A stretch of 64,000 nt of DNA from Balamuthia mandrillaris (lineage: Eukaryota > Discosea > Longamoebia > Balamuthiidae), in contig JAVKOQ010000208.1 of NCBI GenBank assembly GCA_031835245.1, positions 1 to 64,000 on the forward strand. The letters are read 5' to 3'. The notes below the pieces were generated by a model. The model saw only the letters and a list, made by a program, of their open reading frames with translations, had not been told where the DNA came from and did no database searches. Every line of letters starts with the position of its first letter. The first letter of the stretch is position 1. Shown here piece by piece: positions 53,483-56,990 of this stretch. A program made the translations under genes and the position numbers.

Positions 53483-56400
53483 ATGTCGCTGAAGAGGAAG
53501 ACGCGCGCCGCTTCTTCGTTGCGCTCAAGGACGGCCGTCGATGAGGAGGAGGAGGAGGAAAACGATGGCCGTAGGAGGCAACGGCCGCGAGGAGGGAGCA
53601 GGTGGGAAGCCGCCCCGGCGAACGGGGTGCGCGAGCATCAGACCACAGAGGAGAAGGAAGACCTCGTCGGTAGAGCTCGTGAGGCTCTCTCGGCCGTCCG
53701 TTCCCGCATCATCGCATCCAACGAGACGAGCAACAACACGAGAAACGTCAACAACAACAAATGGAAAACGTGGATCAATGATAACGACGTTCGCTCCTTA
53801 CTTCTATCCTTTTGGTCTTTTCGATGTACCGATTTTAATGTTTTTTTTTTTTTGATCTCTCAACGAACAAACAAAAGGGTCATGTGAAAAGTTGGTCAGG
53901 GTTGTTGACCCACGAGGAAGCGGACCTGGTGATGAGGGCGGTGGAGGCAGAGTTGGCAGGGCTCTGGCGGCAGGACAAGATCTTGATTTACGGGTCTCAC
54001 TGGCACGAACCTCGTTTGAAGGTTTACTTTGGGGAGAGGGCTTATTCTTATCATGGTGTAGCACAACAGGTTTTTGTTGTTGTTGTTGTTCTTGTTCTTC
54101 TTGTTCTTGTTCTTCTTGTTCTTGTTCTTCTTCTTGTTCTTCTTCTTGTTCTTTTTCTTGTTGTTCTTGTTCTTCTTGTTCTTCTTGTTCTTCTTCTTCT
54201 TCTTCTTCTTCTTCTTCTTCTTCTTCTTCTTCTTCTTCTTCTTGTTCTTCTTCTTGTTCTTCTTCTTCTTGTTCTTGTTCTTGTTCTTCTTCTTGTTCTT
54301 CTTCTTCTTCTTGTTCTTCTTCTTCTTCTTGTTCTTCTTGTTCTTCTTCTTCTTCTTCTTCTTCTTCTTCTTCTTCTTCTTCTTCTTCTTCTTCTTCTTC
54401 TTCTTCTTCTTCTTCTTCTTCTTCTTCTCCTCAGAAGAAAAAAGCCTAACCAAACAATAGGCGAGACCATTTACAGCTTTATTTCGTGACATCATGAACG
54501 TCCTTGGCCTTGCCCTATCCATCCACGGTATTGCATTTATACTTTCATTCTTCATTTTTTGTTTCGCGTTTTCACCTTTTGCTTCTCTCTCGCACAATCC
54601 TAACAGAAAACGGAACAGCTAATGAAGCAGAACAGGTTTACAACTCACTTTTAGTGACGATGTACAGAAAAGGCTCAGACAGCATATCGTGGCACTCCGA
54701 CGATGAGCCTTGTTTGGGTCATCGTCCCAACATTTCTTCACTTTCGTTGGGAGAAAGTCGTGTCTTTTGTTTGCGACACAAGTGCCGTAACATAAGTCCA
54801 ACTAAGGTTTTTGGTTACTGCTTTGCTTCGTTTTTCTTTTCTGTTTTGACTATTGTCACAATAATACAGATTATGTTGAATCATGGAGACATGCTACACA
54901 TGGGTGGAGCCACTCAAGAATTTTGGGAACACTCCATTCCAAAGTCAACCAACTGCGGCACCCCGCTTGGGCTGCGAATAAGCTTTACCGCAAGAAAAGT
55001 TCTCTTTGATCCTCTTCCTCCTCTTCCTCCCTTTCTTTGCCCCTCTACTGCTTCTGGTGCCACTATCTTTACTCTTCCTCCTCTCTCTTCTCTTTCTCTT
55101 CCTCTTCCGTCTCTTGCTTGTTCGTCTTCCTCTGTACAGCGCCAAGACCTTGGCTGTTCTTCGTCTTCCACTCACCTTTCATCTGCTCTTTCTTCTCGTC
55201 TTTTATCCTTATCTTCATCATCACAGCTATCTTCCTCATCACCGCCATTTGCTTGTTCTTCTTCTTCTTCTTCTTCTTCTTCTTCTTCTTCTTCACCATA
55301 TTCTCCATCACTCCCATTTTCTCCCGCCAAAGAGAACGACATTCCCGTTTACTGCTTCTCTCCCAAGCCAATCTATGGAGAGTTGCCCAACATTAAACCT
55401 GGAACTATTGTGCAAGGCGCTGGTACTCTTTGGTCCTCTTCTCTCCATCGTAATTACAGGCAAGGTATCTCGTACACTAGTCTTTCCATAGCCCGCAACG
55501 GCAAAAAGAAGGGCAAAGCGGCCAGAACAACAACCATGGAATCCATCAAACTAAGCTCCACAGCAAATAGAGGCAACAGAGTAGTGTTGGTGGATGGTTG
55601 CGATTGTTGGGAGAAAGTGTATTACGTAGGAGAAGGCTCTCCGGAAAGAAACCAAACCATGACTCGAGGCAATCTTGCTATGGTGCGAGCATACCATGAG
55701 AAGCAACCCATTCGTGTTGTTGAAAGCCTGCCAAAGCAAGGACAACCAGTAACACCAACTGTACGGGAAATAACACCACAAACGCAAAAGAGGATGGAGC
55801 AATCGAATCTTTTGACGCAATCGTGGGGAGCTTCTTCTACTCCTCAGTCCTCAGCCTCCTCCTGTCCTTCTGCTACTTCTTCTACCGCTGGATTCGTTGC
55901 TCCTCTTGATCCTTCTTCGCCATCATTGCGACGAGTTCAACCGAGCTACAAGTATCACGGCCTTTTTGGTGTGACGGAGATCCTATATAACATCAACGAA
56001 GTCGGCTTTGGATACTTTGTATTTGGCCTGACGCGTTGCATGCGAACCAAATCGGATGGCGTATCCTCCGATTGGGAATGTCCTCCTCAACTTCCAATTG
56101 AATCATCTGTTGAACAGCGGTTTTCTGCACGTGAGTGACTTTGCTTCTTTGTTAATGTAAGAAGATTAACTTTGCTGTCCAAAGTTGGTACTTCTATGTT
56201 TCATAGAAACGGTGGTACCAGCGAAGCATTGGATGAGGACGATCTGGCTGCAGCTACCGTGGAGGAACGAGAAACGGAAACGAAAACAGAAGACGTGGAC
56301 GCGGGAGCTGCAGAGGCAGAAGAGGGAGTAGAAGGAGGAGCAAAGGCAGCAGCACCAGAGGAAGAACAAGAAACACCAATAGAGCAAGAGCATGTGGGGC

Positions 56401-56990
56401 AAAACGAACAAGAAGAAGTTCAAGAATCACATGGAGAAGAACAACGCACAAAGAGAAAGCGTCTACGGAAATTATTCGAGCCATTGCCACCAAGACCACA
56501 AAAACAGCAAAGAACCACAACAAAGAGAAACCACAACCTTTGTCGGCCATCACCAAGGAGTACACGAGCAACAGCACATCTCCAGCAAAAAAAACAACGG
56601 CAATACAAAGATGCTCTTGACGCACTTTCCTCTGAAGAACTTCGTCAACATCTCGCCTTTCATTACTTGGCACAACAGGTTCTCTCCTTCAACAAAACCA
56701 ACCACGACAAGGAGAACAAGGCAAACAAAATGACCAACAACAACAAACAAAAAAACCTTTGTTCGTTTGCCAAAGAACCGATGCGCATTCCGTTGCGCTT
56801 TCAAGTGCCACATCGAGACAAACTGCAAGAGGGCTATGGAGTGCTGCTTCAAAGTTTGGATTGGGAGAACGACCAAAGCACTAGTAGGCAGCACGTTTGG
56901 CTGGCTACGAAGGGCTTTCATTTGGATGCTTTCCGAGCTGTTGTCTTGGAGGGTGGTTACTTCTTTCCCGACTTTTATAAATCCAAATAA
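53483..56990 (+). CDS. AlkB-family dioxygenase fused to an SRA/YDG domain
   Basis: Six exons (53483-53788, 53878-54069, 54461-54527, 54607-54806, 54870-56130, 56185-56990) give about 943 residues. The N-terminal third is an ALKBH2/3-like Fe(II)/2-oxoglutarate dioxygenase: YNSLLVTMYRKGSDS, WHSDDEPCLG (metal His and Asp), HGDMLHMGGATQEFWEHSIP (distal His) and the RISFTAR arginine pair that holds 2-oxoglutarate. After a Ser-rich linker, the same exon encodes an SRA-type domain: PIYGELPNIKPGTIV, LHRNYRQGISYTSL, MTRGNLAMVRA, PIRVVESL, YKYHGLFGV and GFGYFVFGLTR. SRA domains flip and read modified cytosine. The normal GGYEDD region is changed (VDGCDCWE) and a low-complexity insert of about 100 residues splits the fold. 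The basic C-terminal region is unfamiliar. A nuclear enzyme targeting modified or alkylated DNA is likely; substrate unknown. Confidence 0.85.
54070..54430. repeat. 360-bp TTC/TTG repeat filling an AlkB-SRA intron
   Basis: Interspersed TTC and TTG trinucleotides ending in an uninterrupted TTC run (about 54345-54428). It is located between the donor at 54070 and the acceptor TAG at 54458-54460. The poly-Phe, poly-Lys, poly-Ser and poly-Arg frames across it are artefacts. Confidence 0.95.

Follow-up and report, generated by a model that had tools for sequence, protein, structure and literature searches.

A predicted fusion of an ALKBH3-type dioxygenase domain with an SRA domain in Balamuthia mandrillaris, and its possible role in DNA repair

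In MBD4 a modified-base reader is wired to repair of the mark's own by-product, and this protein was taken as the model for the logic proposed below. In MBD4, JBP1 and CXXC-TET, a repair or 2-oxoglutarate (2OG) enzyme carries a fused domain that recognises a DNA mark; their readers differ from the SRA domain, and the chemistry of MBD4 differs too. One study reports that 3-methylcytosine (3mC), a form of DNA damage, is an off-target product of DNMTs and that these enzymes co-evolve with ALKB2; the link between DNMTs and AlkB repair rests there on cross-species co-occurrence and DNMT biochemistry (PMC9246332). Here a gene of B. mandrillaris was analysed that encodes an AlkB-type dioxygenase domain and an SRA domain together. 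It lies at positions 53,483 to 56,990 of the window, a stretch of 64,000 nucleotides (assembly GCA_031835245.1, contig JAVKOQ010000208.1, positions 1 to 64,000, forward strand). Genome-wide counts were taken from the assembly of 64.8 Mb in 775 contigs, whose contigs are given our own numbers (C7 and so on).

The gene model was derived by comparing two loci, the window copy and a copy on C7. The window gene has six exons on the + strand and encodes 943 amino acids (aa); all five introns (5/5) are bounded by GT..AG (Table 1). Intron 4 differs in length between the two copies and is therefore a true intron, which settles the one doubtful junction. In the open reading frame (ORF) at 54498-56138, PF13532 scored 71.1 bits (cut-off 31.2) and PF02182 47.2 bits (cut-off 30.7). 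In the spliced protein, PF13532 (2OG-FeII_Oxy_2) matched residues 110-297 with 84.5 bits and PF02182 residues 424-645 with 45.9 bits; two other Pfam matches were both far under cut-off. With both domains over cut-off in ORF and spliced protein, the AlkB-SRA fusion claimed in an earlier sequence-only reading was recovered. That reading had also placed the AlkB end and the SRA in one frame of exon 5, where H276, R291/R297 and the complete SRA match were indeed found free of stops, so that the fusion is independent of splicing. A hidden Markov model (HMM) built from 12 prokaryotic SRA sequences gave 42.4 bits for each fusion copy and 4.0 for the best of 200 protein shuffles; the SRA match is therefore not due to chance.

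The C7 copy was located by a PF02182 search of the genome (nine exon matches, one on C7), with PF13532 exon matches just upstream. It has six exons as in the window copy and encodes 913 aa. DNA identity between the copies was 91.8 and 92.4% in two main blocks (gene and downstream) and 86.5 and 88.0% upstream, and in both a LIM-like gene precedes the fusion gene and a DEAH-helicase-like gene follows it (named from translations). The two copies may be alleles or duplicates. Several loci of the assembly are present twice (C7/C207, ~92% identical; C81/C283; C248/C317, identical over the compared stretch; C21/C599), which points to haplotypes or duplicated segments. When the AlkB part and the C-terminal region served as a protein query against the genome, 18 exons matched, 10 of which belong to the two copies and 8 to AlkB paralogues (33-38% identity); the C-terminal region was matched by the two fusion copies only.

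Selection was estimated by a codon-wise count between the copies, in simple Nei-Gojobori style, with 36 unpartnered window codons excluded; the numbers are small. The ratio of nonsynonymous to synonymous rates (dN/dS) was 0.14 for AlkB and 0.23 and 0.15 for the SRA before and after its insert; it was 0.99 for the Ser-rich linker, 1.13 for the SRA insert and 1.07 for the acidic/basic tract. Values for the N-terminus, the C-terminal region and the whole gene were 0.44, 0.41 and 0.46. Nonsynonymous changes were rarer in the SRA (5/465 sites, P = 3e-5) and in AlkB (7/472, P = 2e-4) than in the linkers (35/611), with no significant difference in synonymous rates (P = 1.0 and 0.13, respectively). 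Within regions, nonsynonymous and synonymous rates differed in AlkB (P = 3e-5) and in the SRA (P = 0.009) and did not differ significantly for the N-terminus (P = 0.10), the C-terminal region (P = 0.06) or the linkers (P = 0.86). Constrained domains with near-neutral linkers indicate that selection keeps up the two domains and leaves the joints free, as expected for a working two-module protein. Judged from sequence and model, the comparison shows AlkB and SRA domains that are predicted to be intact and to share a single polypeptide; both copies of the gene retain the pair, on which purifying selection acts. An artefact of assembly or gene prediction, with two adjacent genes taken for one, was rejected as scarcely credible: a stop-free exon covers both domains at two loci, and the constraint pattern between the copies speaks against it.

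Table 1. Coordinates of the fusion gene and its parts, in window positions
Feature	Position	Strand	Description
Exon 1	53483..53788	+	ATG and N-terminal basic/acidic region, aa 1-102; matching exon in C7 copy
Exon 2	53878..54069	+	AlkB catalytic domain begins, aa 103-166
Intron 2	54070..54460	+	Filled by TTC/TTG-rich repeat; GT..AG; 391 bp, 442 bp in C7 copy
Exon 3	54461..54527	+	AlkB domain
Exon 4	54607..54806	+	AlkB domain; HxD iron ligands H218 (54693-54695) and D220 (54699-54701)
Intron 4	54807..54869	+	63 bp, open in frame in window copy; 68 bp in C7 copy
Exon 5	54870..56130	+	Distal iron His H276 (54930-54932), R291/R297, linker and SRA in a single frame
Ser-rich linker	55017-55319	+	Within exon 5, between AlkB end and SRA
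SRA domain	55320-56130	+	Within exon 5
Pfam SAD_SRA match	55374..56039	+	Residues 424-645; split by 69-aa variable insert at 55734-55940
Rebuilt pocket loop and two flanking strands	55542..55640	+	SIKLSSTANRGNRVVLVDGCDCWEKVYYVGEGS
Exon 6	56185..56990	+	Acidic/basic tract 56187-56579, then unclassified C-terminal region 56580-56987, stop

The C-terminal region (136 aa) gave no convincing Pfam match and no PHROGs match.

The iron triad HxD..H (H218, D220, H276) and the RxxxxxR motif (R291, R297) were found in both copies. When the spliced AlkB domain was compared with the PDB (phmmer), scores were 90 bits for ALKBH3, 60 for ALKBH2, 22 for E. coli AlkB and 21 for ALKBH1, a comparison by bit score of those AlkB types that have solved structures. 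These scores place the AlkB half with the ALKBH3 type. The domain had been called ALKBH2/3-like; the AlkB type held, the kinship was narrowed to ALKBH3, and ALKBH2 identity was rejected on the same scores. The bacterial AlkB equivalog TIGR00568 reached 28.3 bits, well under its cut-off of 231. Human ALKBH3 (PDB 8jnr, 2iuw) was the best PDB match across the whole catalytic domain and shares HxD..H and RxxxxxR with the fusion; its solved chains are 232-250 residues long, and ALKBH3 is not known to carry an SRA or a comparable C-terminal region. PF13532 had 36 exon matches in the genome. Two of the other AlkB genes were scored: one on C206 is of ALKBH2 type (122.7 bits to ALKBH2, 83.1 to ALKBH3), and one on C550 is also nearer ALKBH2 (90.6 vs 73.7 bits). 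Similar ALKBH2-like genes form a family on C550, C20, C310, C342, C47 and C579; C550 stood for this family in the comparison, and the C550 and C20 members translate to the same protein.

For the SRA half, structure prediction as suggested by the sequence-only reading gave an SRA fold, though only with an alignment of SRA relatives as input; prediction from the two copies alone failed (mean predicted local distance difference test score, pLDDT, 27.4). The model was nearest to the plant SUVH type, with an overall fold near methyl-DNA-bound SUVH5. Prokaryotic PF02182 proteins for the alignments came from 7/296 genomes, 4/398 (3 over cut-off) and 4/79 stretches. Among viral contigs, 2/24 stretches matched prokaryotic SRAs and both were used in the fold alignment.

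The altered pocket described earlier was confirmed, with GGYEDD missing and VDGCDCWE and YHG present. The strands flanking the pocket were recognisable in two alignments (SIVL as SIKL, the YTG strand as YYVG). Between them the pocket loop reads SSTANRGNRVVLVDGCDCWEK in place of the GGYEDD type and is longer by eight residues; in an alignment of three sequences the gaps in this loop fell elsewhere than in the two others. A basic insert, KKKGKAAR, stands ahead of SIKL, and the finger is short. Residues Y466, D469 and Y478 form the 5-methylcytosine (5mC) pocket of UHRF1. The Y466 position is Leu or Ala, depending on the alignment; at D469 there is a Gly, directly preceded by an Asp. Y478 is the sole one of the three aligned with a Tyr, in a loop where alignments differ and model confidence is modest. 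Mean pLDDT was 59 over residues 81-90 and 75 over residues 91-100 of the SRA model, and 60 and 53 over residues 51-70, which contain the basic insert. Loss of GGYEDD and a loop eight residues longer point to an SRA without the standard 5mC pocket. Compared with SUVH5/KYP-type SRAs (PDB 3q0d, 4qen), that of the fusion has a rebuilt pocket loop and is joined to a dioxygenase; compared with UHRF1, it has neither GGYEDD nor the long finger. Among matches of the spliced protein up to E = 5 (HMMER filters drop most above ~0.1), neither a SET domain nor UBL, PHD or RING domains were seen, and an ordinary SUVH/KYP gene and an ordinary UHRF1 gene were rejected on these grounds.

In the main alternative, the SRA would no longer read modified bases and would serve as a general DNA- or chromatin-binding module that concentrates an ordinary ALKBH3-type repair enzyme. 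The lost GGYEDD, longer loop and short finger favour this, as does the modest confidence of the pocket model; the constrained core, the overall resemblance to methyl-DNA-bound SUVH5 and the still recognisable YTG-strand Tyr and NQTMTRGNLA stretch count against it. It is considered doubtful.

An SRA that still reads is tentatively preferred. In that explanation the protein would be an ALKBH3-type Fe(II)/2OG dioxygenase with its own SRA, acting in reader-tethered repair of N-methyl bases, above all 3mC. The SRA would bind DNA at or beside a modified cytosine and keep the AlkB half at that site, where it would remove N-methyl groups from bases oxidatively, chiefly from the 3mC that cytosine-5 DNA methyltransferases leave behind as a by-product. 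The nearest solved relatives of the AlkB domain repair 3mC, an SRA is attached to it, and the genome apparently makes 5mC; most economically, these facts would mean an enzyme for 3mC repair that is anchored to methylated DNA. We infer a nuclear site of action, and the base read and the substrate, from these parts. Several points weigh against it. ALKBH3 favours single strands and SRA binds duplex DNA. An ALKBH2-type gene is already present in the genome. UHRF1 Y466 and D469, the 5mC binders, have no clear counterparts in the fusion SRA. The fold prediction depended on an alignment of relatives, and in the PDB the sequence of the SRA alone was matched no more than weakly (SUVH9, E 0.007; SUVH5, E 0.32). 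The fusion was seen in no third species in three protein database searches. If the biochemistry matches the parts, the protein would act in repair or as an eraser, with a built-in guide to methylated DNA. An AlkB repair enzyme welded to an SRA reader would make the link between DNMTs and 3mC repair physical and testable on one purified protein.

In the first protein database search, 4 of 7999 scored candidates matched the fusion query at E <= 1e-3, all across the AlkB domain only; it scored only candidates sharing most words, and its choice of words probably suffered from the Ser-rich linker. The second search gave 14 matches among 5020, again to AlkB only; among these are proteins of fish, amphibians and reptiles, and two entries bear the name AlkB homolog 3. 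The third, with the SRA and C-terminal region trimmed of the linker, gave 0/2615 at E <= 10, and it missed ordinary SRAs too and so was blind to distant relatives. Ten phage records matched, each across the AlkB part only. In viral contigs, relatives were found in 0/69 stretches for the UHRF1-type SRA and 0/96 for the window SRA; AlkB was matched in 1/17, a phage-like stretch whose ORFs of at least 100 aa contained no SRA by eye. No description of an AlkB-SRA protein was found among the papers listed, as judged by title and abstract start, a search outside which most subscription journals lie. AlkB and SRA are each of known kinds; their union in one protein was not met in the protein or literature searches. 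Within the limited reach of the searches, the fusion is likely to be rare.

Candidate genes for making and reading 5mC were identified elsewhere in the genome. PF00145 had 17 matches. A DNMT with a BAH domain lies on C248 in DNA of 47% GC, and the stretch on C317 is identical to it; the genome appears to make 5mC. Other PF00145 matches lie on C3 and C69, in DNA of 25-27% GC with TGA read through. These two contigs and C445, with the same properties, represent Mollicutes-like DNA in the assembly, from a symbiont or culture contaminant. UHRF1-like genes are present on C81 and C283, with GGYEDD in both and with PHD- and RING-like parts on C81 judged by eye; one plasmid record matched the C81 SRA. 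A third kind of SRA gene, distinct from UHRF1 and similar to prokaryotic SRAs (142 bits to the prokaryotic HMM), lies at C55:120908-121377 and has a GGYSDVD pocket. The functions proposed by the sequence-only reading would be 3mC repair beside 5mC, removal of N4-methylcytosine (4mC), or direct demethylation, and the genome context fits the first two.

Direct oxidation of 5mC by the AlkB half, in the manner of TET and with the SRA choosing the sites, would resemble JBP1 and CXXC-TET, which likewise combine reader and 2OG oxygenase in a single chain. Against this, the catalytic domain resembles ALKBH3 and has no Tet_JBP match, and the genome has separate Tet_JBP matches (8, 5 over cut-off); this route is very improbable.

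The remaining alternative is a programmed eraser of 4mC or another N-methyl mark, which the rebuilt pocket would read and the AlkB half remove. The SRA pocket, unlike the 5mC type, agrees with this, as does a possible writer. The N6_N4_Mtase family (PF01555) had 5 matches, 3 on one low-GC contig and 2 on nuclear-like contigs of 48-49% GC DNA. The bacterial-type methylase at C10:265482-266207 has SPPY in one open frame with the domain; in the second copy, at C154:44769-45425, SPPY is in a different frame from the rest. The SPPY motif suggests N4 methylation. By sequence, these two genes are candidates for a writer of 4mC or N6-methyladenine in a eukaryote. The 12 PDB matches of the C10 methylase include solved DNA cytosine-N4 methyltransferases, but CcrM and an unspecified modification methylase rank highest and further adenine methylases occur in the set, so that 4mC is only one possible product. 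In two papers, a 4mC demethylase with AlkB-like chemistry is said possibly to exist (PMC11065753) and the 4mC eraser is stated to be unknown (PMC11898903). Such an eraser is held to be unlikely. Its self-guided form, in which the bacterial-type SPPY methylase of the genome would write 4mC or a different N-methyl base, the reshaped pocket would recognise it and the ALKBH3-type domain would remove it, is regarded as quite unlikely; if true, it would supply the missing 4mC eraser in a eukaryote. Should the altered pocket read 4mC or another N-methyl base, the protein would be the first guided eraser of that mark. MT-A70 had 7 matches in the same genome.
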